Positions 4,445 to 31,894 of a stretch of 32,576 bases of DNA are shown piece after piece. The stretch spans positions 1-32,576 of the forward strand of contig JAGLIM010000006.1 of NCBI GenBank assembly GCA_023142995.1, given 5' to 3'. The notes under the pieces are model-generated. The model ran no database searches. It worked only from the letters and a program-made list of their open reading frames with translations, and was not told where the DNA came from. This DNA comes from Minisyncoccota bacterium. GTDB taxonomy: Bacteria; Patescibacteriota; Minisyncoccia; JAHIHE01; JAGLIN01. Positions within the stretch are counted from its first letter, which is position 1. The number at the start of each line of letters is the position of its first letter. The position numbers and the translations under genes are program-made.

Positions 4445-4447
4445 ATT

Positions 4448-15010: not shown

Positions 15011-15700
15011 ATGAACAAAAAAGAAAAGAAACCAGAGTTTGAGAAATATGAATATTCATCAGCAGCAGTTGATTTGGTAATTTTTTCCATAATAAACGGA
15101 GAGTTAAATGTTCTTTTAACTAAGATGAAATACAAACCGTTTGAAGGAAAATTGGCATTACCTGGTGGAAGGATCAGAGTTCATGAAAGTGTTGATGAAT
15201 GCGCAAAGCGTGAGATTAAAGAGAAGGTTGGGGTAAAAGATATTTATATAGAGCAACTTTATTCTTTCGGAGATGTAAAAAGAGATCCTTCGGTTAGAAT
15301 AATTTCCGTATCTTATCTTGCATTAGTAGATAGCATTGATAATATCAAGCTTGAAACAACTGAAAAGTATGAGAAGATCTATTGGACGCCAATTAATAAA
15401 GTTTCCAAATTGGCATATGACCATAATAAAATCTTAAAATATGCTCTTTTTAGATTAAAATCTAAACTAATTTATACAAATATTGTTTGCAATCTTTTAC
15501 CTAAAAAGTTTAGTTTAAGTGAGATGCAAAAGGTTCATGAAATTATTTTAGGCAGAAAACTGGATAAAAGAAATTTTCGTAAAAAGGTTTTGACTTTGGA
15601 TTTGATCAAAGAAGCGGGCAGGGAAGTAGGGGTTCCTCATCGTCCTTCAAAACTATATTCTTTTAAAACTAAAAAATTAATGATCATTGAAATGTTTTAG
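15011..15700 (+). CDS. nrtR: NrtR, Nudix-related transcriptional regulator of NAD genes
   Basis: The N-terminal 150 residues form a Nudix domain (VDLVIFSIINGELNVLLTK; LALPGGRIRVHESVDECAKREIKEKVGV). The Nudix box has REIKEK where active hydrolases have RExxEE, so one metal-binding Glu is lost, typical of family members that sense ligand without hydrolysis. The last 70 residues (FSLSEMQKVHEIILG, then KRNFRKKVLTL) form the winged helix that binds DNA. NrtR is known to repress NAD synthesis genes, usually responding to ADP-ribose or NAD. Here it sits directly before nadB, and matching operator sites lie before itself, nadB and the nadE operon. No strong Shine-Dalgarno site precedes the ATG. Confidence 0.92.
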   Translation: MNKKEKKPEFEKYEYSSAAVDLVIFSIINGELNVLLTKMKYKPFEGKLALPGGRIRVHESVDECAKREIKEKVGVKDIYIEQLYSFGDVKRDPSVRIISVSYLALVDSIDNIKLETTEKYEKIYWTPINKVSKLAYDHNKILKYALFRLKSKLIYTNIVCNLLPKKFSLSEMQKVHEIILGRKLDKRNFRKKVLTLDLIKEAGREVGVPHRPSKLYSFKTKKLMIIEMF

Positions 15701-15835: not shown

Positions 15836-17407
15836 ATGAATAATCAGAAAATACTAAAAACAGATGTTTTGGTTTTAGGAACTGGAATTGCAGGATGTGT
15901 GGCAGCTTTGTGTTTGGCGGAAAATAAAAAGATAGAAGTTCTGCTTGTTACTAAAGATAAAGATATAAGACGATCGTCAACTTTGCGCGCACAAGGTGGG
16001 ATCATAGCAAGAGGTCAGAATGATTCAGCAGAAAAGTTGAAAAAAGACATCTTGCTTGCAGGTGATGGGTTGTGCAATGAAAAGGCGGTAGATATTTTAT
16101 CAAAAGAAGGTCCTGAACTTGTTGAAAGAATATTGATTGGAAAAGTTGGAGTGGAGTTCAATAAAAGCAAAGGAAAGTTAGATTATACAAAAGAAGCCGC
16201 GCATAGCGAAGACAGAATTCTCTATAAAAATGATCATACAGGGGAAGAAATAGAGAACAAGCTGACAAGAGCATTAAAGAGAAATAAGAACATTAAAATT
16301 CTAACAGATCACACGCTAGTTGACCTTTTGACTATGTCTCATCATGCGGTTGATAGGAGAAAAGTTTATCAGAATAAAAAGTGTGTTGGGGGCTATTTGC
16401 TTAACAATCAAAACGGTCTTGTTAAAACTGTTTTTGCCAAAAAAACAATTTTGGCAACAGGTGGGATTGGACAAGTGTATCTCAGGTCGACTAATCCTGA
16501 AATTGCAACTGGAGACGGACTCGCAACAGCTTTTCGGGCTGGAGCGGAAATTATTAATGCTGAGTATGTGCAGTTTCATCCCACTTCGTTATTTCATCGG
16601 GACGTAGATAACTTTCTTATTTCTGAGTCTCTCAGGGGAGAAGGCGCAAAGCTAAGGAATGAAAAAGGAAAGCTCTTTATGAAAAAATATGATAAGCGCG
16701 GAAGTTTGGCGCCGAGAGATATAGTTGCAAGAGGTATCTATGAAGAAATATTAAGCAGTAAAAAAGACTTTGTATATCTTGACCTTGCTTCTTATTTAGA
16801 TAGGAAATATATAGGGAAAAGGTTTCCTTTGATCTATAGAACATGTTTGAAATACGGTATAGATATAACAAGAGAGATGATTCCAGTTGCGCCAACTGCT
16901 CATTATTTTTGCGGAGGAATAAAGATTGATGAATTTGGTAAAAGCTCTTTGGAAAATCTATATGCAATTGGTGAAGTATCTTGTACGGGAGTTCATGGCG
17001 CGAATCGTCTTGCCAGTACATCTCTTTTAGAAGGACTTGTTTTTGCCAATAGATGTGCTGAAAATATATTAGGAAAAATAAGCGATAGTAGGTTAGTACA
17101 AAAAAGAGATATAAAACCGTGGATATATACAGGAGATCAAACTGTTGACCTTGCACTTATAAAGCAAGACTGGATGAGTCTGAAATCTATAATGTGGAAT
17201 TATGTAGGAATCGTAAGAACAGAAGAAAGGTTAGAAAGGGCCGTTTTAGATCTAAACTATTTGAAACACAGGATCGAAAAATTTTATTGTAATGTTTGTT
17301 TAGATAAAGATCTACTGGAATTAAGGAACGGTATTCAGACAGCGCTTATTATCGCAGAGGCAGCAAAGCAAAATAGGAAAAGTAGAGGATGTCATTATCG
17401 GAGTTAA
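15836..17407 (+). CDS. nadB: L-aspartate oxidase
   Basis: NadB oxidises L-aspartate to iminoaspartate, the first step of de novo NAD synthesis, and hands this to NadA. The FAD site is VLGTGIAGCVAALCLAE (residues 14-30). RRSSTLRAQGGIIA, HSEDRILYKNDHTG, EYVQFHPTS, SESLRGEGA and GVHGANRLASTSLLEG are the familiar landmarks of the family. The C-terminal helical domain ends SRGCHYRS, a slightly short form of the usual SRGxHxRxD end. At 523 residues it is close to normal length. A perfect NrtR-type palindrome lies just upstream. The enzyme can use oxygen or fumarate as acceptor; the sequence does not say which. Confidence 0.96.
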   Translation: MNNQKILKTDVLVLGTGIAGCVAALCLAENKKIEVLLVTKDKDIRRSSTLRAQGGIIARGQNDSAEKLKKDILLAGDGLCNEKAVDILSKEGPELVERILIGKVGVEFNKSKGKLDYTKEAAHSEDRILYKNDHTGEEIENKLTRALKRNKNIKILTDHTLVDLLTMSHHAVDRRKVYQNKKCVGGYLLNNQNGLVKTVFAKKTILATGGIGQVYLRSTNPEIATGDGLATAFRAGAEIINAEYVQFHPTSLFHRDVDNFLISESLRGEGAKLRNEKGKLFMKKYDKRGSLAPRDIVARGIYEEILSSKKDFVYLDLASYLDRKYIGKRFPLIYRTCLKYGIDITREMIPVAPTAHYFCGGIKIDEFGKSSLENLYAIGEVSCTGVHGANRLASTSLLEGLVFANRCAENILGKISDSRLVQKRDIKPWIYTGDQTVDLALIKQDWMSLKSIMWNYVGIVRTEERLERAVLDLNYLKHRIEKFYCNVCLDKDLLELRNGIQTALIIAEAAKQNRKSRGCHYRS

Positions 17408-17649: not shown

Positions 17650-18558
17650 ATGAATAATTTAAATTTAATAGAAAAGATAAATGAGTTAAAAGAAAAGCGA
17701 AGCGCGATAATTTTAGCCCATAACTATCAATTGCCAGAAGTTCAGGATATTGCTGATTTTGTAGGAGACTCATTGGAGCTTGCGCAAATTTCTGCAAAAA
17801 CTGATGCGAAAGTAGTGGTTCTGTGCGGAGTACGTTTTATGGCAGAAACAGCGGCGATGATAAGTCCAAAAAAGAAAATTCTTCTTCCTGACAAAACAGC
17901 AGGTTGTCCGATGGCTGAAATGGTTAGCGTGGAAAAAGTGCGAGAAATGAAGAAACAATATCCTAAAGCTGCAGTGGTATGCTATGTGAATTCTACTGCG
18001 GAAATAAAAGCGGAAAGTGATATTTGTTGTACTTCAAGTAACGCACTGAAGATAGTTGAGTCTTTGAAAAACTATAAGCAGGTAATCTTTATTCCAGATA
18101 AATATTTAGGACATTTTCTGTCCTTGTCATCTGAGAAGGAATTTATTCTTGCGAATGGCTATTGTCCTACTCACGCAAAAATATCTTCAAAATTAATTGA
18201 TGAATTAAAAGTGAAATATAAAGATGCTAAAGTTCTTGTTCATGGAGAATGTACTCCAGAGATCAAAGAAAAAGCTGATAAGGTTCTTAGCACAGGAAAG
18301 ATGTGTGATTATGTTCAAAACTCTTTAAAAAAAGATTTTATAATCGCAACTGAGAAGGAAATAATGCACAGAATGAAAAAAGAAAATCCCAAGAAAAATC
18401 TTATTCAAGCAAGTCCATTGGCGATATGTCCTGGTATGAAGAAAAATAATCTGGAAAAAATATTAAATGTTCTTGAAAATATGAAAAATGAAGTTAAAGT
18501 TGATGAAAAAGTAGAACTAAAAGCCAGAAAGTGTATTGATCGGATGCTTTTAATTTAA
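17650..18558 (+). CDS. nadA: Quinolinate synthase
   Basis: NadA condenses iminoaspartate with dihydroxyacetone phosphate to quinolinate, using a [4Fe-4S] cluster. The family start IILAHNYQLPEVQDIADFVGDSLELA is present. The three cluster Cys are C86 (KTAGCPMAE), C172 (GYCPTH) and C260 (AICPGMKKN), spaced 86 and 88 residues as expected for the roughly 300-residue form. VNSTAEIKAESDICCTSSNA and IPDKYLGH are further signatures. It follows nadB after a 242-base gap largely filled by the palindromic element, with no strong promoter visible. nadC, the next gene of the pathway, is not in this window. Confidence 0.97.
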   Translation: MNNLNLIEKINELKEKRSAIILAHNYQLPEVQDIADFVGDSLELAQISAKTDAKVVVLCGVRFMAETAAMISPKKKILLPDKTAGCPMAEMVSVEKVREMKKQYPKAAVVCYVNSTAEIKAESDICCTSSNALKIVESLKNYKQVIFIPDKYLGHFLSLSSEKEFILANGYCPTHAKISSKLIDELKVKYKDAKVLVHGECTPEIKEKADKVLSTGKMCDYVQNSLKKDFIIATEKEIMHRMKKENPKKNLIQASPLAICPGMKKNNLEKILNVLENMKNEVKVDEKVELKARKCIDRMLLI

Positions 18559-18810: not shown

Positions 18811-19629
18811 ATGACAGAGATAATAAATGGCTCTAATCGATATAGAGTCATTAAAGAAGTGGCAAGGTCTGAACATTATCATCTCTACTTGTGTAAACAA
18901 AAAGAGACACAATGTCAGTGCTTGCTACAAATAGCAATTACGGTAGAACATAACGGTGAACTTCAGCGCGCAGCATACATTCTTAGAGAACTTGCATTTC
19001 ATGCTGATAGGCTTGAAGAAGAGTATAAGAATGTAAAAACTGATCCAAATGTTTTGCTTAATTATCAACTCGGATTTCCCGAGGTGGTGGATAGTTTTAT
19101 TTGCCAAGAGCAGGGCAGGCGACAAATCAACATTTTTGCATTTAGGAATGTAGATGATGTAGCTGATATGGTGCCGCTTGCGAATATTACAACCAAAGAC
19201 AATTTGCGTATTGATTTGCGCACCAGTGCGTGGATTATGGGTAAAGCTCTAAAACTGCTTGATTTTGTTTATGGTCAGGGTATTTCAGTTGATTTAATGA
19301 CTGGAGAAAATATACTGATCAATGCCAAACAACATTATGTAGTGATATTTGACTTGGTACAAGCACAAATATTTGAGCAAATGGTTCCAAAGGATATCAG
19401 AGGTCGCGAAATTTCGCAGACAGCAAGTGCTGTAATTATCGCTCTGGGGGGAGATGTGAAAACAGGAATTTTCCCAGAGAATGACAGTAGAGAATATATC
19501 GACTATTTATTGCAAATGGCTCGTGGAAATGTGAGTAATGCAAAAAGAGCGCACGAAGATTTCTATGAAATAGTTGATCGGATTTGGAAACGAGAATTCT
19601 ATCCTTTTACGGTTGAGCAATTGAAGTAG
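18811..19629 (+). CDS. Degenerate protein-kinase-like protein
   Basis: The layout recalls a protein kinase: a short beta N-lobe (RYRVIKEVARSEHYHLYLCK), a helix with Glu, then a C-lobe with GISVDLMTGENILIN in place of the HRDLKPEN catalytic loop and VVIFDLVQAQ in place of DFG. The catalytic-loop Asp and Asn and the DFG Asp are kept. The VAIK lysine is not evident (LLQIA), and His-Arg of HRD is Ser-Val. At 272 residues the C-lobe is short. It could be a pseudokinase or an atypical enzyme. It starts with a good GGAG site and heads an operon with a vWA protein 30 bases on. Kinase plus vWA pairs are known in TerY-type systems; this similarity is of arrangement only. Confidence 0.65.
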   Translation: MTEIINGSNRYRVIKEVARSEHYHLYLCKQKETQCQCLLQIAITVEHNGELQRAAYILRELAFHADRLEEEYKNVKTDPNVLLNYQLGFPEVVDSFICQEQGRRQINIFAFRNVDDVADMVPLANITTKDNLRIDLRTSAWIMGKALKLLDFVYGQGISVDLMTGENILINAKQHYVVIFDLVQAQIFEQMVPKDIRGREISQTASAVIIALGGDVKTGIFPENDSREYIDYLLQMARGNVSNAKRAHEDFYEIVDRIWKREFYPFTVEQLK

Positions 19630-19659
19630 AATATAAATGAAACGGAGGAATGATATATA

Positions 19660-20799
19660 ATGGGAAAATTAGTAGTAACAAGAGACACTTATGAAAAGGC
19701 GGTTGAGAAGCATGTATCGACAAAAGGACCAGCAACAAGAAGAGCGGAGCAAGAAGCTCACGCTACAGGCAAACTTCATTCGCTTGTTGATCCGGCTGGG
19801 TTTGGCGTAATTCGTTGTTCTTTGCCTCGATTTGAGAAACAAGGTGATGGTCTTTGGCGTCTCACAGTTGGTACGCCAGTACCAGTTGAAACTATTGTTG
19901 ATACAACTGGTAGCATGGGAGGCAATGTTGATGTAGCGTTACGCAGATTGCCAGACGCATATGCTTTATGCAGTGATATTTTACCTGAAGGCTGTGATCT
20001 TCAAATCGCTACCGGAATTTTTGGAGATGTGGTTGATAGATTTGTTCTATGTCGTCCACAATTTGAAATGGAGGCTGGTAAAATTGTTGAGCAATTAACG
20101 CTGATGGTACCAGAGCGAGCTGGGGGTGATTTTACAGAAGATCCTCAATATGGTCTCTTTGGAGCAGCATATCTTTCTAATTGTTATATCAACAGAATCG
20201 GTCTTAAGGAATATCATTTTGTGGTTACGGATGCACCGGCTCGTGATGAACTTGACGAAAGAGAACTTGTGCGGATTTTCGGCGATGAAATTTTTGAGAA
20301 GGTATCTGAGAATGGTCATCAAATCAATCGTCAAGGCTTGCCAACTACAGCTGAAGTTGTTCAGGATCTTTTGAAATATGCACACGCTTTTGTGTTGCAG
20401 GTTGATGAAGAGTTAAGAACAACCGAATTTTGGTCGGAAATATATGGTGTGAATCGAGTTGTGAAACTTCCTGACACCGAATATTTGCCACAGGTGCAGG
20501 CTGTTATTATTGGCCTTACCGAGGGAACGCTTAATCTTCAGGAGGTTAAAAAATTCCTAACAGACAACGGTATTTACGACAAAGATGCTGAGAAAATTTC
20601 TCGCTCTCTTGTCAATATTCCTTTGAGGGCGCAAGCAGATTTGCCAAATTTTGACAAGCGTCCCCGGAAAGGAGATCTTTTCAGGAATAAGACCGATGTT
20701 TGGCCAATTGACCAGGAAGATGTCGTAAAACTTGAATCCTCCGGAATAAATTCGGAGAGTGAGGATAATGATTCAAAAGAAGGTCTTGATTGGCTTTAG
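19660..20799 (+). CDS. von Willebrand factor A domain protein
   Basis: Residues 75-260 show a vWA fold: strand VPVETIVDTTGSMGG with the MIDAS metal motif Asp81-x-Thr-x-Ser85, followed by helix DVALRRLPDAYALC, strand CDLQIATGIFGD and later YHFVVTDAPARDE at the usual second acidic position. The first 70 residues are a distinct N-terminal region and the last 100 include a charged tail. There is no signal peptide or membrane segment, so it is cytoplasmic. A GGAGG site with about 10-base spacing precedes the ATG. vWA proteins with kinases act as metal-dependent binding scaffolds in several bacterial stress systems. Here the likely partners are the kinase-like and PurA-like proteins on the same transcript. 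Confidence 0.85.
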   Translation: MGKLVVTRDTYEKAVEKHVSTKGPATRRAEQEAHATGKLHSLVDPAGFGVIRCSLPRFEKQGDGLWRLTVGTPVPVETIVDTTGSMGGNVDVALRRLPDAYALCSDILPEGCDLQIATGIFGDVVDRFVLCRPQFEMEAGKIVEQLTLMVPERAGGDFTEDPQYGLFGAAYLSNCYINRIGLKEYHFVVTDAPARDELDERELVRIFGDEIFEKVSENGHQINRQGLPTTAEVVQDLLKYAHAFVLQVDEELRTTEFWSEIYGVNRVVKLPDTEYLPQVQAVIIGLTEGTLNLQEVKKFLTDNGIYDKDAEKISRSLVNIPLRAQADLPNFDKRPRKGDLFRNKTDVWPIDQEDVVKLESSGINSESEDNDSKEGLDWL

Positions 20800-20836
20800 G
20801 ACATAAGACGAGACAGAATCAGAAGAGGTGATTGAT

Positions 20837-22228
20837 GTGAAAAAAATCTATATTGTCACCGATCTTGGTCCTGGTGACGGTGGAAAAGGTGGTGTGGTGC
20901 ATAAAATCGCAACAATGATGAATGCTCATACTGTTATAAAAGTTGGAGGTAGCCAAGGAAGCCATGGAGTCAAAACTTCAGAAGGATTTAACTATGCATT
21001 TAGTTATTGGGGATGCGGTACATTTGAGGGAATAAGAACACATATTTCTTCTCGGATGATCGTTCATCCAATTGGTTTATTAAATGAAGCTGAATTAATT
21101 CGATATGGTGGATTTGGTATTTATAATCTTTTTGATCTATTAACAATAGACGAAGAAGCATTATGTGCTACTCCATATCATGGAATTGTTTCGCGCCTAA
21201 AAGAGATGGCGCGAGGAGACGATCCTCGTGGAACAATCGGCACAGGTGTTGGTGAATCCTATCGTTACTCACAGCAATATCCAGATCTTGCAATTCAAGT
21301 TCGTGATCTATTGCGACCGAATCTCCGGGATCAGCTTATTGCTGTACGAGAACAGATACAGAGAGATTTATCTCCGATAATTGAGGGAGAATTTTTTCCC
21401 GAAGACCGCAAAATTATGGAAAAGGAGGTTTATCTTCTTTATGATGATGGCTATCTTGACTTTATTTTGAAGCAATTTCAAAAAGCAGGACAGAAAGCTA
21501 AAACTGTTGATCACGACTATCTCGGAAAGAAAATTCTTTCCAAAAACGGCGTGGCTGTGGTTGAAAGCTCTCATGGAGTTCTTACGGACCATTATCACGG
21601 TTTTTATCCGCATACCAGTGCTATTCGGACATTGCCTTGCTTTACGCAAACAATGCTCAAAGAAGCTGGCTTTGATGGACAAATCGTGAATATCGGAGTA
21701 TTCCGGGCCTATGCGATCAGACATGGTGCTGGACCGATGCCGACTGCCGATCCAACGATGGCGGAAAATCTTTTGCCAGGAAGTCATAAGGAAGAAAATC
21801 GCTGGCAAGGGAAAATACGAGTAGGACCGATTGATTTGGTTTTACTCCGTTATGCAATCAATGTCTGCGGTGGGCCATCTGCATTTGATGGTTTAGCTGT
21901 CACTTGGTTTGACCAGATCGAAAGAAATGGACAGTGGAAGATATGTAAACAATATAACAATAAAGATACTGATAATCGAACATATTTTACATCTTCGGGT
22001 GAAATCAAAGTTCGACAAGGAATAGATGATGAACAATCGGAATACCAAAGGAATCTTGGTAGACGGCTTTTGAGCTGTAGACCTGAGATTACAACTTTGA
22101 AAATTCCATCAGACGCAAAGCAAGAAGAGCTTTACTCGTTTTGCGCTGATGTTTCAGGAAAAGAACTTGGTATTCCAGTGAGAATGGTTTCGCTTGGTCC
22201 AACTGAGCGGGATAAGATTTGTAAGTAA
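20837..22228 (+). CDS. Divergent adenylosuccinate-synthetase (PurA)-like enzyme
   Basis: PurA joins IMP and aspartate using GTP. This protein follows the PurA order with many changes. The GDEGKGK loop is GPGDGGKGG with the catalytic Asp kept (residue 14). GGHNAGH is GGSQGSHG with the catalytic His kept (residue 43). GTTGRGIGP is GTIGTGVGE, and VGAGPFPTE is HGAGPMPTA. The guanine motif TKLD has become TWFD, so nucleotide choice may differ, and the Arg-rich substrate loop reads RWQGKIRVGPID. The length is near normal. I start it at GTG 20837, behind GAGGTG; the track's GTG at 20828 lies inside that ribosome site. It shares an operon with kinase-like and vWA genes rather than purine genes, so a housekeeping PurA role is unlikely. 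Confidence 0.85.
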   Translation: MKKIYIVTDLGPGDGGKGGVVHKIATMMNAHTVIKVGGSQGSHGVKTSEGFNYAFSYWGCGTFEGIRTHISSRMIVHPIGLLNEAELIRYGGFGIYNLFDLLTIDEEALCATPYHGIVSRLKEMARGDDPRGTIGTGVGESYRYSQQYPDLAIQVRDLLRPNLRDQLIAVREQIQRDLSPIIEGEFFPEDRKIMEKEVYLLYDDGYLDFILKQFQKAGQKAKTVDHDYLGKKILSKNGVAVVESSHGVLTDHYHGFYPHTSAIRTLPCFTQTMLKEAGFDGQIVNIGVFRAYAIRHGAGPMPTADPTMAENLLPGSHKEENRWQGKIRVGPIDLVLLRYAINVCGGPSAFDGLAVTWFDQIERNGQWKICKQYNNKDTDNRTYFTSSGEIKVRQGIDDEQSEYQRNLGRRLLSCRPEITTLKIPSDAKQEELYSFCADVSGKELGIPVRMVSLGPTERDKICK

Positions 22229-22255
22229 AGCAAAGAAAAAATATAACAGGAGAAG

Positions 22256-23341
22256 ATGATAAGTATGGCAGAAGAAGATACAGTAGATACAGTAGATATA
22301 GCGAAGAACGTAGATATCAAGCCTGAATCAGGCGAAGAAATAACAACAAGCGTTGATGAGTCCGTGACAACTGTTGATCAAGTTACTGCTAAGCTTGAAG
22401 AGCTGGGCGTTGATAGCGATATGATCAAGAAGATCAAGGAAATGGGTGCTGAGATGGTAAAGGATTTAGCCGGTCTTCAAGAGAAAGACCTTACTGATGC
22501 CGGAATGCCAATACTTAAGGCAAGAAAGTTGATTGCCGTGCTTGTTCCGACCAGTGGTGCTAATATTGATCCGAACAAAGAATTGGCAGATAATGAAAAA
22601 CCTTCAAGCGCTCAAGTGACCGGATTTGCAGGTGCTCTTGGAATAGATCCGACTACTTTGATGCTTCTTATGAACGGTCAAGGTGGAGACATGGATCTAT
22701 CAAGCATGATATCAATAGATGTCGTGGTCAATGGCTACAATCCCAAGCTTCGTAATATGTTTCTGATGATTATGGGACAGATCGAAGAACGTCTTGGTGT
22801 GCCTATCGTGGTAATTGATAGTGATGGTGCTGTTAATCGATCTCTCACAGCCGAGTATATTGAAGGTCTTGAAGAAAGCCGTGATTCTGCGGAAAATAAT
22901 ATCTACTTTGATATAGAAAGCGTTCCGCATGAAGTCATTAATGTCGGTGTAGATGCTCAAAGCATCTATGATGCTGATCCATTAATGCCTGATAAAGCTC
23001 TTCAAAAGAGTGGTATGGGTACTGGTCGGGTAAATTGGAATGGTGTTCCTCTTGAAGTACGGCAGGTAGCATATTTTGCTGTAACTGAAACAAAGGAGAT
23101 CAAACCAACCAGTGATGGACATCAAACATGGCTTCGTGGTCATATGAAGCCCGGTGTTAACCGTTTGATCTTCCATGGTCGAGCTCCGCAAGCAATCAGC
23201 GCATATAACGAAGCTGCTCGTACTGGTTCGTTGCCCACGCTTCGAGTTATGCTTTCGCGTAATCCGCGTAGCAAGGAGATAATGCCACGTCGTCGTAAGT
23301 CAAATCCTTCAGATTTGCTGACAGGAATTGGCAGCGAATAA
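22256..23341 (+). CDS. SAM/HhH-domain protein of the PurA-like operon
   Basis: After an acidic, Thr/Val-rich N-terminus of about 35 residues comes a small helical domain (VTAKLEELGVDSDMIKKIK, then LQEKDLTDAGMPILKARKLIAVL) that resembles a sterile-alpha-motif or helix-hairpin-helix domain used for oligomerisation or nucleic-acid binding. The rest, about 220 residues, is unrecognised. It includes DVVVNGYNPKLRNMFLMIMGQ, a conserved-looking TGRVNWNGVPLEVRQVAYFA segment, and a very basic end (MPRRRKSNP). AGGAG lies three bases before this ATG and twelve before a second Met (22265), so either start is possible. It is the last gene of the operon, followed by a terminator. Function unknown. Confidence 0.75.
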   Translation: MISMAEEDTVDTVDIAKNVDIKPESGEEITTSVDESVTTVDQVTAKLEELGVDSDMIKKIKEMGAEMVKDLAGLQEKDLTDAGMPILKARKLIAVLVPTSGANIDPNKELADNEKPSSAQVTGFAGALGIDPTTLMLLMNGQGGDMDLSSMISIDVVVNGYNPKLRNMFLMIMGQIEERLGVPIVVIDSDGAVNRSLTAEYIEGLEESRDSAENNIYFDIESVPHEVINVGVDAQSIYDADPLMPDKALQKSGMGTGRVNWNGVPLEVRQVAYFAVTETKEIKPTSDGHQTWLRGHMKPGVNRLIFHGRAPQAISAYNEAARTGSLPTLRVMLSRNPRSKEIMPRRRKSNPSDLLTGIGSE

Positions 23342-23445: not shown

Positions 23446-25353
23446 TCATTTTGTTATTTTAGGGACAGGAATTTTTGGCAAAAATACTTTACTAACAAAG
23501 AGTTTTGTTGCCAGTTGCCGATATCCAGAATCCCAGAACATACTCTTGTCATCAATTCCTCCAGCATGTAATGTATTAATGCCTCCATATTGAGGAAAGA
23601 ATTGCTCATATCCCTTATGCATCAATCTATATTGTAGAGTATCTTTCTCCAATTCCTCCAAATATAATCTTCGTGCATTAAGTCCATAGATTACTTTGTC
23701 AGTATCATATAGATAGGGAACTAACAATTTTTCAAGCAAATCATATATTGTCTTTTTATCACCAATCCAAGCGGAACCAAAAAGGACATGTGTCCAAGAG
23801 CTTTCACCAAGCGATACATCTAAATCATTAAAGTCACGGACTTGAATTATCCCATCTTTTTCTTCAAGCCAAAACTCAACAATTTTATCTTGAACCTTTT
23901 CATGCACGAAATGCTTTTTAAGCAAGTCTTGCAATTTTGCCCGATTATCAAAAGATATTCCCGGTCGTACAAATACGCCTAAATCAATATCGGCATTTTG
24001 CGCTCCATATCCTTTAAGACGAGAACCAAATACTAAGACTATCGGATATATAAGTTGTGACAACTCAGGATCTGATTTGATCAATGTAGTCATTTCTTGT
24101 ATATCGCATATTTCTTTTTTGATTAGCTTCAAGTTTTCTGAAAATGGTCCAGCCAATTTGGGAATAACAATATTTAATCTCGCCAATTGTTCATTATCAA
24201 TAATTCTTAGATGATAAAGATGACGAAAGGTTTTTGACAATGTCTCATTGATTTGATCATTATCATTTTTCCAAAGTCTCAGCATAGTATCCCGATATTG
24301 TTCGTAGATTTTCAAAGCTCTATTAAGATCGATTGACGCCATGAATTCAATTGCTTTTCGAATTCCTTCAATCAATACTTGTATGCTTGCGATATTGATC
24401 TCTTGATCAAGAAATTTTGTTATTGATTCACTTGTTATATCATCTTCGATAGCTGCTGTGCTGACAATTTCTGCCAAAGTTTCAATAGCTTTTTGTTTCT
24501 TGCTTTCTTTCAACCAATTCCTTCTTTTCTCTGTTATATCACTATATATTGTCGTATCTATACGGAGAAATTCCTTAATTATCTCTTCTTGAACAAATGA
24601 AAGTACTGTTGTTCTCGGTGCTACCTTGATTTTTCTGTCTTTTATATACATATCTGTCTGAATAATTCGAGCAATACTGCTAATATAATAATCAGTAGAT
24701 TTTTCCATAAACTCAAATTCTTCTTCTGTGATCAGACATAGATCAGCTAGAACAGGAAGTGTAGCAACAATGCTATCTCTCAGCGTTTGATCATTACTTT
24801 CCTCCATAAACGTAACAATATCTTTAACTTCTATCAATCCATTTTCAATCAACTTTGGTATGAGATGAGCTGCTTTTACTACGCGAGGTAAATCACCAAT
24901 GCGTTGTTCAATCTCGAGCACATCTCCATCCAAAAAGTTGGCGCGTACATCCTGAACCAAAAGTAAATCTTTCCAAGCTTTTAGATATATTCGTTTAAAT
25001 CGATCCAAAGTTTGTTGAAGTATTCGTTTAGAAGGATGCCACGTTTTGCTTGGCAAGAATTCAAACGGGAGATAAAGGATAAGGCGTTTATATTCTTGAT
25101 TGTGTTCTAGTAAATCGCTTAAAGAGGTAAAGAGTTTTGCCACCTGTTCTTCGTTAATATACTCTTGTTTAATTGCAGTTTCAAGAGATATATCTGGTCG
25201 TGGTAAATAATTTATGATCTCATTAAGTCGATCAAGTAATATTTTTCTTTGTTCTGTCTGTTTCCAGAAAACTTTACTAGCCGTAATACTTTTGGGCCAA
25301 ACCTTGACCGTGTAAACAGGATCAAGGAATGATTCGTTAACTACCAGAATCAC
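23446..25353 (-). CDS. Large helical protein with minimal nucleotidyltransferase core
   Basis: The first 430 residues are mostly helical and unrecognised. Residues 438-465 (PIVLVFGSRLKGYGAQNADIDLGVFV) match the GSxxxG..DxD signature of the polymerase-beta-like nucleotidyltransferase superfamily, with metal-binding Asp 455 and 457. DFNDLDVSLG near 507-516 could give the third acidic residue. The C-terminus (YEQFFPQYGGINTLHAGG..) looks conserved and specific. The GTG start is well supported by AAGGAGGT at seven bases. Enzymes of this fold transfer NMP groups to proteins, antibiotics or tRNA, or make oligonucleotides. It lies convergent to the PurA-like operon and divergent from nadE, so a link to either is possible. 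The target is unknown. Confidence 0.82.
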   Translation of the reverse strand: MILVVNESFLDPVYTVKVWPKSITASKVFWKQTEQRKILLDRLNEIINYLPRPDISLETAIKQEYINEEQVAKLFTSLSDLLEHNQEYKRLILYLPFEFLPSKTWHPSKRILQQTLDRFKRIYLKAWKDLLLVQDVRANFLDGDVLEIEQRIGDLPRVVKAAHLIPKLIENGLIEVKDIVTFMEESNDQTLRDSIVATLPVLADLCLITEEEFEFMEKSTDYYISSIARIIQTDMYIKDRKIKVAPRTTVLSFVQEEIIKEFLRIDTTIYSDITEKRRNWLKESKKQKAIETLAEIVSTAAIEDDITSESITKFLDQEINIASIQVLIEGIRKAIEFMASIDLNRALKIYEQYRDTMLRLWKNDNDQINETLSKTFRHLYHLRIIDNEQLARLNIVIPKLAGPFSENLKLIKKEICDIQEMTTLIKSDPELSQLIYPIVLVFGSRLKGYGAQNADIDLGVFVRPGISFDNRAKLQDLLKKHFVHEKVQDKIVEFWLEEKDGIIQVRDFNDLDVSLGESSWTHVLFGSAWIGDKKTIYDLLEKLLVPYLYDTDKVIYGLNARRLYLEELEKDTLQYRLMHKGYEQFFPQYGGINTLHAGGIDDKSMFWDSGYRQLATKLFVSKVFLPKIPVPKITK

Positions 25354-25582: not shown

Positions 25583-25625
25583 TTGACAATATCTTCAGTA
25601 ATGATACTATGTGTATAGTCAACAC
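25583..25625 (+). promoter_or_regulatory. Distal promoter of the NAD salvage operon with NrtR operator
   Basis: The -35 TTGACA and -10 TACTAT are 16 bases apart, and GTGTATAGTCAACAC (25611-25625) follows the -10 directly. Spacing, -10 and operator are almost the same as before nrtR at 14951. It lies about 340 bases before nadE, implying a long leader. Confidence 0.75.
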
Positions 25626-25666
25626 TAACTATATTAATTAAAGCTTTTTATTTTTAAACTGACTTA

Positions 25667-25681
25667 GTGTAGATAATACAC
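25667..25681 (+). promoter_or_regulatory. Second NrtR operator of the NAD salvage operon
   Basis: GTGTAGATAATACAC has the same 15-bp GTGT-N7-ACAC form, with extended pairing to AGTGTA..TACACT. It is centred 56 bases downstream of the first site, so a repressor could bind both sites together. Confidence 0.7.
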
Positions 25682-25773
25682 TTTAATAATAATTTAATAT
25701 ATAGGGATCTCGATTTTGAATTATTGAATAAAAAAATTGAGGTCTGAACTTAAAAAATAGTTGGGAATGTTGG

Positions 25774-25801
25774 TTGACAATTAAAAGAATTCCGCTATAA
25801 T
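25774..25801 (+). promoter_or_regulatory. Consensus proximal promoter of the NAD salvage operon
   Basis: Both hexamers are perfect: TTGACA and TATAAT, 16 bases apart. No NrtR-type site overlaps it, so it may give a constitutive level of nadE operon transcription. Bound NrtR at the upstream sites could still affect it. Confidence 0.8.
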
Positions 25802-25966: not shown

Positions 25967-26842
25967 ATGAATGGAAATGAAGTAAAAGAAATCTATGACT
26001 TATTTGAAAGACAGATTCCTTTTTATGAGGAATTTAGAGATATTGGTAGAGATAATCTTGAGATCATAGTTGACGAGATTGTAGCTTTTATCAGGTTTCA
26101 TCACATTAATGTTAAAAATGGTGAAATCGCAAAAGCTGTTGTTGGTATTTCAGGAGGAGTAGATTCTTCTGTTGTATTAGCACTGGTTAAAAGAGCTTTA
26201 GGTGCGGAAAATGTAATTGCAGTAAAGATGCCATATATTGGAATAAGTTCAAAGGAAAGTATATTTTATGCGAATTCTCTTGTTGAAAAATTTGGGATAC
26301 AAGATGTTCGTGAGATATCAATAAATGAAGCTGCTGATGCAATTATTGGTGGTGTTGGGAGATCTGGAGATGATCTTACTTCATTTGTCAAAGGAAATAC
26401 TATGGCAAGAATGAGAATGTCTATTCTCTATGCTATAGCTGGAGCAAGTGGTGGCAGAGTTATTGATACTTGCAACGTGACTGAAATCCGTATGGGTTAT
26501 TATACTAAACATGGAGATGGTGCTAGTGATCATAATCCTGTAGGAAATCTGTATAAAACCTGGGTTTGGGATCTTGCAAAGTTTCTTGAAGTTCCTCAAA
26601 AGATCATTGACAGGGCTCCTTCTCCTGAATTAGAAGAAGGGCAAACTGATGAGGATGATATGAAGATCACTTATAGGGCCTTGGATCTGCTTTTATATCT
26701 TATGTATGACAAAGGTATAAGCAAACAAGACTTAATTAAGGATTATTATTTTCCAGAAGAGGTGATCGATATGGTTATCGGAAAAATAAGAGGAAGCGAA
26801 CATAAGAGACATCTTGCACCTGTTTGCAAGATCGATCTGTAA
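25967..26842 (+). CDS. nadE: NAD synthetase, ammonia-dependent type
   Basis: NadE adenylates nicotinate adenine dinucleotide and amidates it to NAD, the last step of both NAD routes. The PP-loop is ISGGVDSSVV (residues 61-70). TCNVTEIRMGYYTKHGDGASDHNPVGNLYKTWVWDLA is the family core, including the TEIxxGYxTxxGD substrate-binding segment, and RAPSPELEEGQTDED follows. There is no N-terminal glutaminase domain, so free ammonia is the likely nitrogen source. It is the first gene of a seven-gene NAD operon and has an AGGTG ribosome site. Two NrtR-type operators lie upstream. Confidence 0.97.
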   Translation: MNGNEVKEIYDLFERQIPFYEEFRDIGRDNLEIIVDEIVAFIRFHHINVKNGEIAKAVVGISGGVDSSVVLALVKRALGAENVIAVKMPYIGISSKESIFYANSLVEKFGIQDVREISINEAADAIIGGVGRSGDDLTSFVKGNTMARMRMSILYAIAGASGGRVIDTCNVTEIRMGYYTKHGDGASDHNPVGNLYKTWVWDLAKFLEVPQKIIDRAPSPELEEGQTDEDDMKITYRALDLLLYLMYDKGISKQDLIKDYYFPEEVIDMVIGKIRGSEHKRHLAPVCKIDL

Positions 26843-26880: not shown

Positions 26881-27777
26881 ATGGCAATCCAAATACAATC
26901 AGCTTCATTTGTCATTGAAGATGTTGACTGCAATCAAGGATGTAAATTTTGCGTTGCAAGAATGACATTTTCTCCTAAAGTTAAAGAGTTTGATGAGGAG
27001 AAATATCTCAAAAAGATGAAGAGAGTATTGAAATATGTAAAAAGTGGTGGTGCTCAAACAGCAATTATTACCAGCAAAGGAGAAACTCTTCTTTCAAGCA
27101 AAAGCTATCTCTTGAAGGCCATTGGTCTTTTAGAGAAAGATTTTGGTCAGATCGATCTTCATACTAACGGCTCTTTGCTTACCAGAGAAATGGCCGAAAG
27201 TTTCTATGATGCTGGTCTTACTAATATAACGCTGTCCGTTCCAAGTTTGGATAAAGATAGTTTGGTAAGTATTACTGAAGGTTTTGTGGACTATAAAAAC
27301 ATTATCGCTTTTTGCAGAAATGTTGGTTTGGCGGTTCGTTTAAGCTGTGTCACAAATAAGCAAGGTGTCAAAGATCTTGATTCTATGCTTGAATATATAG
27401 AGAAGGCAAAGCTGATGGGAGCTCATCAAATTGTTTTTAGAGAACTATGGATTCCTGAAAATTCAAAGAAGAATAATCCAGAAGTTTATAAATGGAGTAA
27501 AGAAAATTTTGTCCCGCTTGGAAAATTTAGAGAATATGTAGAGTTACTCAATGAAGAAGGAAAGGCTCATTACATATTTACCCTTCCTTGGGGAGAAAAA
27601 GTCTATGACATAGAAGGAATGAATATTACTTGCGCAACCTGTACGACAAATTATTATAATTCAGGATCGTGCGGTGATGACAGTACAAATGTCAGCAACA
27701 CTATAAAAAGCGTTGTACTCCTTCCAGATGGTCATTTATATTCCAGTTGGGAACTTGGAGGGTCAATGATCTTCTAG
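26881..27777 (+). CDS. Radical SAM protein of the NAD operon
   Basis: The cluster motif is DCNQGCKFC (C17-x3-C21-x2-C24), the standard radical-SAM CxxxCxxC. IDLHTNGSLLT and NITLSVPSLD are typical of the barrel strands in MoaA/PflA-like members. Near the C-terminus C251-x2-C254-x9-C264 could hold a second iron-sulfur cluster, as in SPASM/twitch-type enzymes. GGAGGTG six bases before the ATG gives strong translation. It lies 38 bases after nadE and 77 bases before nadK, within the NAD operon, yet no standard NAD pathway step needs such an enzyme. It may modify a cofactor or peptide, or replace a missing step. Substrate unknown. Confidence 0.9.
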   Translation: MAIQIQSASFVIEDVDCNQGCKFCVARMTFSPKVKEFDEEKYLKKMKRVLKYVKSGGAQTAIITSKGETLLSSKSYLLKAIGLLEKDFGQIDLHTNGSLLTREMAESFYDAGLTNITLSVPSLDKDSLVSITEGFVDYKNIIAFCRNVGLAVRLSCVTNKQGVKDLDSMLEYIEKAKLMGAHQIVFRELWIPENSKKNNPEVYKWSKENFVPLGKFREYVELLNEEGKAHYIFTLPWGEKVYDIEGMNITCATCTTNYYNSGSCGDDSTNVSNTIKSVVLLPDGHLYSSWELGGSMIF

Positions 27778-27819: not shown

Positions 27820-27854
27820 GGGAAACATCTATTTTATCTTTTGAGGTGGCAAGA

Positions 27855-28751
27855 ATGAGAATTGGGATTGTATATGACTCGCATAAAAAAGAAGCAAGAA
27901 AGCTTGCTTTAGAAGTTGATAACTGTTTGCGAGAAAAGGTTGAAGAAGTTTCTGTTTACGCTGAAGAGGTGTTTCTGGAATTGGATAACAGTATAGTAAG
28001 AACTTTCACAGAAGTAATCACTTTCGGTGGAGATGGACTTGTTCTGCATATAGCGAACAAAGTTGCTCCTTTTGGAATCGGAATGCTAAGAGTTAATTTT
28101 GGAGAAGTTGGCTTTTTAACCAACGTGGAATCAAATGAAGTGTTTCCTGAACTGAATAATTTTCTTGAGGGTAAATATAAAGAAGTTGAAAGAGTTCGAA
28201 TGCAGGGAACAGTCAAGAGAGGTGTGGTCATTGATGAAATAAAAAAAGAAGTGACTGGAGGAAAAGTAAAATCAAGACTTGATTCTCTAAACGAACTTTA
28301 TACCGGTGGCATAACAAGTACTGTTTTCTTGAGACTAATAGTTGTCGGAAAAGAATCTTTTGAGGTTACAACAAAAGGAGACGGAGCGATATTTTCTTCT
28401 CGGACGGGGTCAACAGGTTACAACCTTAATGCTGGAGGTCCAGTATTGCATACTGATTTGGTTTTTGCTGTTACAGCAAGTAATGGACTGTTTAGCTATA
28501 AGGCACCAATGCCTAATAGCAAACTTGTAAACGAGAATTCATTTGTTCTAGAGACTGGTTTTCTAGAGACTGGATTTAAAATACTTGTTCAAGTAACTAG
28601 GCAATGGAAAAAAAATATGCCTTATCTGATAGCGGATGCTGATTCGAAATTCAAGCTTTTGGAGGGTGATGTTGTTCTGATAGAGAGATCGCCACAAAGT
28701 ACGATATTTCTAGAAAGAGAGAGGGAAGCAGAGAAATGGAAGATATTATGA
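27855..28751 (+). CDS. nadK: NAD kinase
   Basis: NadK phosphorylates NAD to NADP with ATP or polyphosphate. The GGDG motif is in EVITFGGDGLVLHIA. INFGxxGFLT appears as VNFGEVGFLTN, and the glycine-rich SSRTGSTGYNLNAGGPVLH is the NAD-binding segment. The length is normal. I start it at ATG 27855 (MRIGIVYDS), eight bases after GAGG; the track's GTG at 27846 overlaps that ribosome site. A segment around residues 115-140 is more Lys-rich than usual and may be a loop insertion. It is the third gene of the NAD operon. Confidence 0.95.
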   Translation: MRIGIVYDSHKKEARKLALEVDNCLREKVEEVSVYAEEVFLELDNSIVRTFTEVITFGGDGLVLHIANKVAPFGIGMLRVNFGEVGFLTNVESNEVFPELNNFLEGKYKEVERVRMQGTVKRGVVIDEIKKEVTGGKVKSRLDSLNELYTGGITSTVFLRLIVVGKESFEVTTKGDGAIFSSRTGSTGYNLNAGGPVLHTDLVFAVTASNGLFSYKAPMPNSKLVNENSFVLETGFLETGFKILVQVTRQWKKNMPYLIADADSKFKLLEGDVVLIERSPQSTIFLEREREAEKWKIL

Positions 28752-28767
28752 ATGATTGGAGGATATG

Positions 28768-29319
28768 ATGAAAGATAGAATTATAGGACAAGGAAGTCAT
28801 TTGAAGCTAGTAGAGATTAATTGGATTGATGACGAGGGAAATAAAAGAAAATGGGAAGCTGTTAAAAGAATGACTACTGGTACGGGTATTGTATCTGTTA
28901 TGGCAATTACTGATGAAAGCGAAATCATTTTTGTTAGTCAGTATCGTCCTCCAGTTGGAGGAGAAGTGATTGAATTCCCAGCTGGTCTTTGTGATCAAAA
29001 AGGCGAAGCGTTGGAAGAAACAGCCCTGAGAGAATTGCAAGAGGAAACTGGATATCGGGCCAAAAAGATTGAAAAACTTTTTGCTGGTCCTGTTTCCGCT
29101 GGACTTTCTTTTGAGTTTCTAACTGTTTTTTGGGCCACAGATCTTGAATTTGTCGGCAAGAAAGATGGACGAGAAGAAAGAGGGATTACTGTTTATAAAA
29201 TCCCATTTAAAGAAGCAGATGAATGGCTTCGTGGTATGGAAAAAAAAGGTATGCTTGTAGACGTCAAATTGTGGGCGCGTATAAGCTATATCAAAGATAT
29301 TTTGAGTGTTGCAGATTAG
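28768..29319 (+). CDS. Nudix hydrolase, ADP-ribose pyrophosphatase type
   Basis: The Nudix box is complete: GLCDQKGEALEETALRELQEETGY has Gly-x5-Glu-x7-Arg-Glu-x2-Glu-Glu-x-Gly. The preceding QYRPPVGGEVIEFPAG is typical of ADP-ribose pyrophosphatases (NudF-like). Such enzymes split ADP-ribose to AMP and ribose 5-phosphate, clearing a product of NAD breakdown. Since ADP-ribose is a known NrtR ligand, this enzyme could also tune the regulator. I choose ATG 28768, six bases after GGAGG; the track's TTG at 28756 overlaps that site. It lies between nadK and the adenylyltransferase. Confidence 0.93.
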   Translation: MKDRIIGQGSHLKLVEINWIDDEGNKRKWEAVKRMTTGTGIVSVMAITDESEIIFVSQYRPPVGGEVIEFPAGLCDQKGEALEETALRELQEETGYRAKKIEKLFAGPVSAGLSFEFLTVFWATDLEFVGKKDGREERGITVYKIPFKEADEWLRGMEKKGMLVDVKLWARISYIKDILSVAD

Positions 29320-29355
29320 TTTGTGGCGCTAAATTTTCAGGAGGATGATAGTAAG

Positions 29356-29832
29356 ATGAAAAGAATAGGATTGGTAGTAGCAAGAATGCAACCATTACAT
29401 CTCGGGCATATTTCTTTGATAGAAACAGCCATACGAGGGAACGATGAGATTGTGATTTGCATTGGATCTGCTCAAAAAGCTGAGCCTCTTCCTATAGAGG
29501 AACGGCGAGAGAGGATAGCTGAGAAACTTAATTCTCTTGGATATGACACAGGGCTATATAGAATCTTTGAATTGGATGATATTGAGTCTGACGAAGAATG
29601 GCCTTTGTATTTGAAGAATGGATGTGAAATCACGGACGGAACCGAAAACACTTTTTACACTTCGGACAGTCTGCCGGAAAGCTATCTGAAAGCAATGAGA
29701 GATCTTGGCTTTCGGATAAGAACTATTGAAAGAGGTTCGTTTGATTACGAAGCTTCTAACGGTATGGTTTATAAAGTATCTTCAGCAACGAAGATTAGGG
29801 AGATTTGTAAAAGGCTTGGTTTGAGAGTATAG
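29356..29832 (+). CDS. Nicotinamide/nicotinate mononucleotide adenylyltransferase (NadM-like)
   Basis: This enzyme joins NaMN or NMN with ATP to give NaAD or NAD. The nucleotidyltransferase motif is ARMQPLHLGH, and the C-terminal motif is SATKIRE, matching the (I)SSTxIR of NadM/NadR-type enzymes. IGSAQKAEPLPIEERRERI is the expected strand-helix connection. At about 158 residues it has the compact archaeal-type size rather than that of NadD. The first Met after AGGAGG (29356) is the likely start; the track's GTG at 29323 lies ahead of the ribosome site. With PncB before NadE in the same operon, NaMN is the likely main substrate, though the family often accepts both. Confidence 0.92.
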   Translation: MKRIGLVVARMQPLHLGHISLIETAIRGNDEIVICIGSAQKAEPLPIEERRERIAEKLNSLGYDTGLYRIFELDDIESDEEWPLYLKNGCEITDGTENTFYTSDSLPESYLKAMRDLGFRIRTIERGSFDYEASNGMVYKVSSATKIREICKRLGLRV

Positions 29833-29856: not shown

Positions 29857-31323
29857 ATGATGGATATAAATAATTGGGAATACGATGAACAAAAGACACG
29901 ACCAGGCGATCCGTTGATTGCCGACAAGTATCATTTCACTCAAATAAAAACAATTTGGGCATTAGGATTTTCTGAAGTCAAAACAGTTCATGATTGTTTT
30001 GTCAGAAGAACTCCTTTTGGTAGCTATCTGCTGGTGAATGGAATTGAAAGAGTGATAAAGCATCTGCATAATTTTAGATTTACTGCTGAAGATATTGAAG
30101 CAATAAGTTTAATGGATCCGCTCAGTTTAACGCCAAAGTATGATGGATATCTTGACTATCTTGCAAATCTTCGATTTAAAGGAGATGTATGGGCCATTCC
30201 GGAGGGAAATTTAGCTTTTCCAAAAGAACCCATTTTGAGAGTTGAGGGCAATTGGGCTGAAACATGGATGGTTGAAAGTGCGATCTTGAAAGCGGTTGAT
30301 GATGCTTCTTTGATTGCAACTTATGCGTCAAGGGTAAAAGAGGCGGCAGGTCGAGTTCCATCATTTGATTTTGGTTTAAGAAGATCAAAAGGTGACGGGG
30401 CTAATGTAAGTTCTGCAAGAGCTGCTTATGTCGGAGGGTTGGATGCGACCTCGAATGGTAGAGCTGCGAGCAATCTTAAAATTCCATGGGTAGGGACAAC
30501 ATCTCATGAAGGAATTGCTGGTTTGACGGCTTTATTGGGATCAGAAGTTGACGCTTTTGTGGCTATGATGACACATAACGAAGGAAATGACGTACTCATC
30601 GCAGACACTTTTAGCACAATGTCAGGAACTGAGAATATAAAAAGAGCGGCTAAGATTGTTGGCAGACCGGTAAAAGGGGTGCGAACCGACAGTGGCGACA
30701 CAATTGGATATGCTTTTAAGATGAGGGAAAGTGATCCAAATAAAGAAGGTTTTGAAGGAATTATGCCTACTGGCGACTATACTTTTGAATTGATCCACGA
30801 GGCCATAAAAAGAGGAGCTCCGGTAACGGGATTTGCTGTTGGAGGAAAAATGGTTGCGCCATCAAATCCAACAACCGCGGGTTCTGTGTATAAGCTTGTC
30901 GCAATGAATATTGACGAAGAAATGGTTCCAGTCATCAAAATATCTGATGACGAAATCAAAACTCTTCTTCCTGATAGAAAAAATACCTGGCGAAAAGTAG
31001 ATGGTGGACAGATCATTGGCGATGTCATCGCGTCTGATAATGAAGGGAAGCCAGACGGAGAGTATGAGCCAGTTTTGGTTCAGGTAATGAGGGGAGGTAA
31101 CACTAGAAGAAGTAAGATACTCATTGAACCTAGAGATTTGCAGGACATTCAGGCATTCGCGCGGGAAAACATCGCGATGTTGCCGACAAAATATCGCCGA
31201 ATAGAAAATCCTGTGCCATATCCGGTTAGGATCAGCGATAACCTGAAAGATCTACAGAGAAAGATAATTTCAGAGATTAAAGCAAAACAAGCTCAGATTG
31301 ATGAGATTGTGATAATCCAATAA
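29857..31323 (+). CDS. pncB: Nicotinate phosphoribosyltransferase
   Basis: PncB converts nicotinate and PRPP to NaMN. Landmarks are DKYHFTQ, FVRRTPFGSYLLVNG, FDFGLRRSKG, GTTSHEGI with the phosphorylated-His position, and GVRTDSGDTIGYAFKMR, with the late VGGKMVAPSNP loop. The length of 488 residues fits the longer bacterial PncB type. AGGAGG precedes two adjacent ATGs; either could be used. It is sixth in the operon, 24 bases after the adenylyltransferase and 14 before the nicotinamidase, so the salvage steps are encoded together. A nicotinamide-specific (NAMPT) activity is less likely because the nicotinamidase follows. Confidence 0.95.
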   Translation: MMDINNWEYDEQKTRPGDPLIADKYHFTQIKTIWALGFSEVKTVHDCFVRRTPFGSYLLVNGIERVIKHLHNFRFTAEDIEAISLMDPLSLTPKYDGYLDYLANLRFKGDVWAIPEGNLAFPKEPILRVEGNWAETWMVESAILKAVDDASLIATYASRVKEAAGRVPSFDFGLRRSKGDGANVSSARAAYVGGLDATSNGRAASNLKIPWVGTTSHEGIAGLTALLGSEVDAFVAMMTHNEGNDVLIADTFSTMSGTENIKRAAKIVGRPVKGVRTDSGDTIGYAFKMRESDPNKEGFEGIMPTGDYTFELIHEAIKRGAPVTGFAVGGKMVAPSNPTTAGSVYKLVAMNIDEEMVPVIKISDDEIKTLLPDRKNTWRKVDGGQIIGDVIASDNEGKPDGEYEPVLVQVMRGGNTRRSKILIEPRDLQDIQAFARENIAMLPTKYRRIENPVPYPVRISDNLKDLQRKIISEIKAKQAQIDEIVIIQ

Positions 31324-31336
31324 GGAGGAAGATGAA

Positions 31337-31894
31337 ATGACCAGTAGGACAATGATAAGAGGTATAATACTTGTAGTAGACGATATAGATGGGTTTCTCA
31401 AAGAAGGAATTCTTGCCGATAAGAAGAACATGGTGGTTGTTCCAGAGACAAGAAAGCTCTTGAGAAGGAAAATTTCCGAAGGATGGGAAGTTATATTCCT
31501 ATGCGATAGTCACAAAGAGGGAGATCCTGAGCTTCAAATATTTGAGGATCACTGCATGGCTGGGACAAAGGAAGCTAAGGTAGTTGATGAATTATTTGAG
31601 TTTGTCACTCCAGAGAACTATATTCCAAAGCCTGGTCATGATGGTTTTTATGGCACTAATCTGGAAGAAATCATTAAGCAGAAGAATCCAGAGAAGATAG
31701 TTGTTGTTGGTGTTTGTACGGATGTCTGTGTATTGTACACAATAATCGGTCTACGCAATATCAAATTGCCAAATCCTGATTGTCAAGTAATAGTTCCAAA
31801 AGATTGTGTTAGAGCGTTTGATGTAGCTAACACAGACGTGTGGTTTGCTCACATGAAAAATGTTTTGGATGTTCAGGTAGTTAAAAAACAGTAG
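31337..31894 (+). CDS. pncA: Nicotinamidase, isochorismatase-like hydrolase
   Basis: PncA hydrolyses nicotinamide to nicotinate and ammonia. The catalytic triad reads Asp15 (LVVDDIDGF), Lys98 (IPKPGHDGFYGT) and Cys131 (VCTDVCVLY). The metal site fits CDSH (Asp57, His59) with EDHCMAGT (His72), matching the usual DxH..H arrangement. The region between these is shorter than in E. coli PncA, where a WHPANH segment sits. The ammonia released could serve the glutaminase-free NadE of the same operon. AAGGAGG precedes the ATG. It is the last gene of the operon, followed by a strong terminator. Confidence 0.92.
   Translation: MTSRTMIRGIILVVDDIDGFLKEGILADKKNMVVVPETRKLLRRKISEGWEVIFLCDSHKEGDPELQIFEDHCMAGTKEAKVVDELFEFVTPENYIPKPGHDGFYGTNLEEIIKQKNPEKIVVVGVCTDVCVLYTIIGLRNIKLPNPDCQVIVPKDCVRAFDVANTDVWFAHMKNVLDVQVVKKQ

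Follow-up and report, generated by a model that had tools for sequence, protein, structure and literature searches.

What does a radical SAM enzyme do in the middle of an operon for NAD salvage? The question is raised by a gene, here called rSAM, in a 32,576-nucleotide stretch of the small genome of a Minisyncoccota bacterium of the Parcubacteria (contig JAGLIM010000006.1, assembly GCA_023142995.1), referred to throughout as the window. Radical SAM chemistry is, to our knowledge, not used at any step by which NAD is made or salvaged; the recurrence of rSAM beside NAD genes thus suggests that NAD metabolism includes a reaction not yet known. Depletion of NAD is a main antiphage strategy, and any enzyme able to alter or repair the pool of NAD would therefore be of importance to the biology of phages and the chemistry of cofactors alike. 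NAD operons with rSAM also nominate a short list of directly assayable substrates.

A first-pass annotation, made from the sequence alone, had placed the gene within an NAD salvage operon, and this placement holds: seven genes in the order nadE-rSAM-NADK-NUDIX-NMNAT-like-NAPRT-pncA, with rSAM second, run co-directionally on the forward strand from nadE (25967) to pncA (31894). The relevant features of the window are as follows.

15011..15700, + strand: NrtR-type NAD regulator, NUDIX and winged helix (PF21906 NrtR_WHD, 8e-23)
15836..17407, + strand: nadB-like L-aspartate oxidase (PF00890, 4.4e-76)
17650..18558, + strand: nadA quinolinate synthase (PF02445, 1.7e-117)
25603..25628, + strand: 26-bp element common to the nrtR upstream region (14971-14996)
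25665..25682, + strand: TAGTGTAGATAATACACT, a palindrome resembling an operator, ahead of the nadE-rSAM operon
25774..25801, + strand: promoter-like TTGACA-16-TATAAT before the operon (12/12 consensus positions, consensus scan only)
25967..26842, + strand: nadE, NH3-dependent NAD synthase, first operon gene (PF02540, 6.3e-64)
26881..27777, + strand: rSAM, the subject of study (ORF of 298 aa; Pfam Radical_SAM)
27846..28751, + strand: NAD kinase, NADK (PF01513, 1.2e-9; PF20143, 1.1e-6)
28756..29319, + strand: NUDIX hydrolase, ADP-ribose pyrophosphatase-like (PF00293, 1.8e-11)
29323..29832, + strand: NMN/NaMN adenylyltransferase-like (NF002243, 1.4e-13, below the curated cut-off; PF01467, 2e-5)
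29857..31323, + strand: NAPRT, nicotinate phosphoribosyltransferase (PF17767, 7.8e-25; NF006695, 1.2e-92, below the strict cut-off)
31337..31894, + strand: PncA, isochorismatase-family nicotinamidase, last operon gene (PF00857, 3.6e-26)

The gaps between these operon genes are short (38 bp and 68 bp flank rSAM). From rSAM to pncA the operon strand shows no terminator-like site; such sites are located after pncA. The same two gaps, like the overlapping genes of the viral locus L105, leave no room for a precursor peptide gene, which argues against a RiPP maturase. The consensus of the TAGTGTAGATAATACACT palindrome has four matches in the window against 0.14 expected and recurs before nadB (15787-15804), and the 26-bp element, which overlaps a promoter-like site at 25583-25610, has two matches against 0.00 expected. 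Since the palindrome precedes nadB and the operon, and the 26-bp element precedes nrtR and the operon, the nadE-rSAM operon probably belongs to a putative NrtR regulon.

Several other gene sets lie in the window. Four co-directional genes at 18811-23341 resemble an unclassified multi-gene system. Their products are, in order, a 272-aa protein of no family, a 379-aa protein that has a vWA-like DTTGSM motif, a divergent adenylosuccinate synthetase paralogue (20828-22228) and a 361-aa protein, again of no family. The gene at 23446-25353, divergent from the NAD operon, encodes 635 aa ending in a Polbeta nucleotidyltransferase domain and has a homologue (53%) near rSAM in genome G037 (L035:1304-3007). 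A C5-cytosine methylase, an SNF2 helicase and further helicase/nuclease-like genes at 1287-9707 form a probable restriction/defence island, within which 6432-7415 matches PADLOC PDC-S36 and TmtA.

The rSAM reading frame is intact and preceded by a GGAGG ribosome site (sequence inspection), and its product matches the Radical_SAM superfamily model above threshold (PF04055, E=2.5e-12, 47.7 bits against a cut-off of 29.5). An AF2 model (mean pLDDT 92.1, pTM 0.90), whose Foldseek matches are radical SAM enzymes, contains the partial TIM-barrel SAM domain; its nearest solved folds are MoaA (2fb2; E 2.1e-13, TM 0.68) and, second, viperin (5vsl; E 1.6e-11, TM 0.66/0.74). The CxxxCxxC motif at C17/C21/C24, which the first-pass annotation had described as intact, is invariant in 40/40 full-length relatives, and the family alignment also contains a GKGE/T motif (residues 65-69), an invariant W290 and conserved basic residues at positions 153, 187 and 276.

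The further suggestion, that C251/C254/C264 mark an active two-cluster enzyme, did not survive the alignment. All three cysteines are present in the window protein, and only C254 is near-invariant (39/40). The C251 column holds cysteine in fewer than 3 of the 40 relatives, with a separate column, 250, holding it in 27/40, and C264 falls in no conserved column. Residues 260-270, including C264, are modelled with pLDDT below 50 in an otherwise confident structure. The cysteine motif of SPASM/twitch auxiliary clusters is thus missing, and a two-cluster radical SAM enzyme was rejected on two grounds, the lack of conservation among the C-terminal cysteines and the apparent disorder of this segment. 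The C-terminal stretch follows the pattern C...C...R-x-x-I-x-x-P-D-G-x-L-x-x-x-W and, judged from the aligned sequences, looks like a degenerate MoaA auxiliary-cluster region minus its last ligand. A second cluster is no trait of the family.

The closest relative, 81% identical, is found in a Parcubacteria genome (G001, contig JAGLXN010000043). The remaining relatives, 21-43% identical, are found in Patescibacteria (three more in the first search), in a 735-kb phage and in dozens of IMG/VR contigs, many of them 100-460 kb long. Among 384 genomes of the window's class, nine match rSAM, eight of them strongly. The single window protein gave no match in the search of viral contigs, and the viral rSAM loci were retrieved with an alignment as query. 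In INPHARED, the full-length matches to two viral queries (E<=1e-4) all came from one uncultured phage of 735 kb, LR756501/LR756503, a third found no match at 1e-10, and the window query gave weaker partial matches in four other records; a plasmid search gave no rSAM match at 1e-8. Terminase genes are present on some rSAM contigs (6/15 with a match); the remaining contigs are taken as viral from their listing in IMG/VR. No model in Pfam, NCBIfam, PHROGs or PADLOC names the family above cut-off, and the main texts of open-access papers gave no description of such a protein when radical SAM enzymes were sought in connection with huge phages, nicotinamidase, NAPRT or the salvage of NAD. The family is apparently undescribed.

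Recoding of TGA/TAG in some viral loci, raised by their ORF density, was rejected, as translation with table 11 gives open rSAM frames except in L076 (one TAG) and L067 (TAA and TGA). The copies in L067, L223, L082, L084 and L166 carry in-frame stops, frameshifts or truncations, some at contig edges.

In the rSAM tree, the window protein and its G001 orthologue cluster with a viral member, L039 (support 100/100), and the remaining bacterial members form a separate set that includes two viral rows (96/82 at its core). Linkage to NAD genes requires at least 12 state changes on this tree, and host type requires 3. Both bacterial branches show a neighbourhood adjoining NADK, which therefore arose or was kept in two branches.

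The first-pass annotation had proposed to look for homologues beside NAD genes in many genomes, and they are found there: six of the eight strong bacterial members, over the two separate branches, and 9/53 non-redundant viral members adjoin NAD genes. The window and G001 share the complete order nadE-rSAM-NADK-NUDIX-NMNAT-NAPRT-pncA. On the other branch, G128 and G647 have NADK-rSAM-[PF15891:NUDIX] with NAPRT and nadA nearby, and G610 has nadC, nadA, NADK, rSAM, [PF15891:NUDIX], NAPRT and pncA; NADK, NadE, NrtR and rSAM lie together on one 8-kb contig of G711. The two remaining members are that of G037, which is near the homologue of the window gene 23446-25353 mentioned above, and that of G146, which has no NAD gene nearby in a genome (98% complete) without NadE and NadA. 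Across the 384 genomes, with kinship ignored, NadE (E<=1e-14) is present in 7/9 genomes with rSAM versus 28/375 without (Fisher p=9e-7), and NadA in 6/9 versus 15/375 (p=1e-6, kinship likewise ignored). The outcome that the annotation had set against its own proposal, a known and unrelated family lying beside NAD genes here alone, is not what was found, given that no named family scores above cut-off and the context recurs.

The PF15891-NUDIX fusion (nucleoside 2-deoxyribosyltransferase-like and NUDIX-like) adjoins rSAM at L034:7682-8869, L154:4410-5627 and L153:11619-12791, and is also present in NAD clusters without rSAM (G163, G582, G606, G640).

Most of the family is viral, and the window copy clusters with a viral one, as would be expected if a phage-derived gene had come to lie within NAD operons by chance. 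Such neutral hitch-hiking is disfavoured and highly improbable, however, in view of the association repeated over the whole tree, the genome co-occurrence with NadE, and the purifying selection on rSAM between the window and its G001 orthologue (dN 0.105, dS 0.66).

The viral loci extend the link to NAD. Among 58 non-redundant rSAM loci, 53 of them viral and mostly from large phages, NAPRT lies within 4 kb of rSAM at 12 (9 viral), a PncA-type gene at 10 and NadE at 6. L105 and L115 contain an apparently complete pncA-rSAM-NAPRT-NMNAT-nadE operon with overlapping genes, and shorter arrangements are found in L135 (rSAM-NAPRT-NUDIX-pncA), L138 (pncA-NAPRT-rSAM) and L103 (NAPRT-YopX-rSAM-pncA). 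The viral NAPRT and PncA proteins retain what we take to be their catalytic residues. On seven whole viral contigs with a PF04095 NAPRT, four of the NAPRT genes lie within 4.5 kb of rSAM, above chance (p=9e-5). A reverse scan from PncA found a family rSAM at 6/28 loci with NAPRT versus one weaker match at 38 loci without (p=0.036); control scans with RtcB and DnaB queries returned too few loci for use. The combination of NAPRT with PncA and/or NadE is common in large phages, at a minimum of about 67 non-redundant NAPRT loci (L158-L237 range), and viral operons of this Preiss-Handler type are apparently little described.

For about 80% of the viral members, no NAD gene was recognised within 7-8 kb, and some viral members lie near RtcB, Thg1-like, RNA ligase or UDG genes. 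Both observations would suit an enzyme acting outside NAD chemistry, on RNA, tRNA or another small molecule, and found in the same islands as NAD genes through a common role against host defences. We consider this unlikely: strong recurrence beside rSAM is limited to NAD genes and does not extend to those repair genes, and the Patescibacteria operons and the shared NrtR-type operator would be left unexplained.

Is rSAM then a step that the pathway requires? G010, a sister genome from the window's own family, keeps the gene order nadE-NADK-NUDIX-NAPRT but lacks rSAM, and at the rSAM position carries only a 127-bp spacer resembling the window's rSAM-NADK spacer. The reverse scan from NAPRT similarly found a family rSAM at about 8 of 67 viral loci among the matches listed (6 full-length, 2 broken or truncated), leaving about 59 of those 67 without one. 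A gene that is under purifying selection, yet absent from G010 and from most viral NAPRT loci, is kept without being a required step of NAD synthesis; rSAM is an accessory gene and not a missing pathway step. The idea that it supplies a missing activity, also put forward in the first-pass annotation, is accordingly disfavoured, as G010 and most viral NAPRT/PncA/NadE operons manage without it.

One specific version of a missing step was considered because NadC is missing from the window genome (G000, 96% complete) and from G001 (100%), where neither QRPTase domain was detected although NadA and NadB are present, which leaves this lineage with no evident route for using its quinolinate. rSAM might then replace NadC by turning quinolinate into nicotinate for NAPRT. 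This, too, is highly improbable, since G128 and G610 carry both NadC and rSAM, G010 has NadA/NadB with neither NadC nearby nor rSAM, and the viral operons have no NadA.

A role upstream of the pathway, in which rSAM converts another pyridine (a methylated, oxidised or damaged nicotinamide derivative) to nicotinamide or nicotinate for PncA and NAPRT, deserves more weight as a minority possibility. PncA and NAPRT are the viral partners, with rSAM between the two in L105/L115, and between the window and G001 rSAM (81%), PncA (87%) and NMNAT (74%) are kept, whereas NadE, NADK and NAPRT (30-43%) have diverged or been replaced. In G010, which lacks rSAM, the interval from nadB to nadA instead holds PnuC-like and NadR-like genes (L243:6174-7803) that are absent from the window. 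Against this, bacterial rSAM adjoins NADK and not pncA, there is no recurrent transporter or oxygenase partner, and we know of no radical SAM reaction that converts a pyridine in this way.

Modification or repair of a nicotinamide-derived metabolite remains our best guess at the class of explanation. The tentatively preferred reading, to which we give somewhat less than even weight, is that rSAM is a single-cluster radical SAM enzyme with an intact SAM-cluster motif, of an apparently undescribed family, that has been recruited repeatedly, in large phages and in a few Patescibacteria, as an accessory to NAD operons of the Preiss-Handler type and acts on a nucleotide of the NAD pathway. A [4Fe-4S] cluster on C17/C21/C24 would cleave SAM, and the resulting 5'-deoxyadenosyl radical would attack an anionic nucleotide of the NAD pathway (NaMN, NaAD or NAD(P)), held by the conserved basic residues, and remove a hydrogen from its ribose (or its pyridine). 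C254 and W290 may complete the pocket, replacing the second cluster of MoaA. The product would be a modified or restored NAD-type nucleotide, for which NAPRT, NMNAT, NadE and NADK of the operon could supply the substrate or process the product, and in phages this step would go together with the restocking of NAD in the course of infection.

Support is good for the family and for its tie to NAD genes, and the intact SAM-cluster motif, the purifying selection, the recurrence beside NAPRT/PncA/NadE/NADK/NUDIX and the accessory status are shown directly; the chemistry we infer. The absence of a recurrent protein or peptide partner, the NAD operons, the nucleotide-ribose-enzyme fold and the basic residues make an anionic NAD-pathway metabolite the most likely substrate, with a nucleotide (NaMN, NaAD, NAD(P)) ranked first and nicotinate second. 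MoaA and viperin act on nucleoside triphosphates, attacking the nucleotide ribose, and these nearest folds, the shared NrtR-type operator and the recurrent NAD context speak for the preferred reading; G146 and the viral majority with no recognised NAD gene close by count against it. The similarity to MoaA and viperin is mainly to the generic SAM core (residues ~16-190) and so says little about the substrate, and PncA and NAPRT as the tightest viral partners fit a substrate at the nicotinate level equally well. A more speculative and rather doubtful extension is that rSAM makes a radical-modified NAD-type nucleotide with which large phages and certain Patescibacteria engage in NAD-based conflict. 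Such a product could be a deoxy or didehydro analogue of NAD, either resistant to hydrolysis by host NADases or incorporated by polymerases as an RNA cap. If true, this would represent a previously unknown branch of NAD metabolism.

Among known systems, rSAM is closest in structure to MoaA, the GTP 3',8-cyclase (TIGR02666), with which it shares the CxxxCxxC core, GGEP-like and TNG motifs, the best solved-fold match (2fb2) and a residual C-terminal C...C and DGxL pattern. It differs in scoring 46.6 bits against a cut-off of 284, over residues 17-177 only, in keeping just C254 of the three cysteines of the MoaA auxiliary [4Fe-4S] cluster (the third is absent and the second not conserved), and in having neither the C-terminal GG nor adjoining Mo-cofactor genes. 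Viperin (SAND; NF038283, PADLOC pVip), which works on nucleoside triphosphates (PMC9642334), shares the CxxxCxxC core, the overall fold and a possible defence-related setting. A divergent viperin producing 3'-deoxy-3',4'-didehydro nucleotides for defence or counter-defence would agree with the pVip match (E=7.5e-11) and the fold, but is very unlikely: rSAM reaches 38.3 bits against the NCBIfam cut-off of 180, the match is mainly to the generic core, the viperin-type C-terminal region is replaced by a conserved motif of its own, and its neighbourhood is one of NAD genes with no nucleotide kinase except NAD kinase. The QueE-like phage enzymes of PHROG 2076 also have a phage radical SAM core, and some viral members match them weakly (1e-9 to 2e-6). 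The window protein itself had no match in the PHROG search and scores 19.1 bits against 260.1 for QueE (TIGR03963), its C-terminus is longer and distinct, and no queuosine/7-deazaguanine genes are among the recurrent rSAM neighbours. Phage-encoded NAD salvage genes are also known from NAD+ salvage and reconstitution systems (NadV/NadM/NadR; NARP1, PMC12774641). A survey of viral NAD-ADPr genes describes phage NAD synthesis via NadV, NadM and NadR, and the terms radical SAM, Preiss-Handler and nicotinamidase are absent from its main text (PMC9503650). The operons described here differ from these systems in encoding a Preiss-Handler route, pncA-NAPRT-NMNAT-nadE, accompanied by rSAM.
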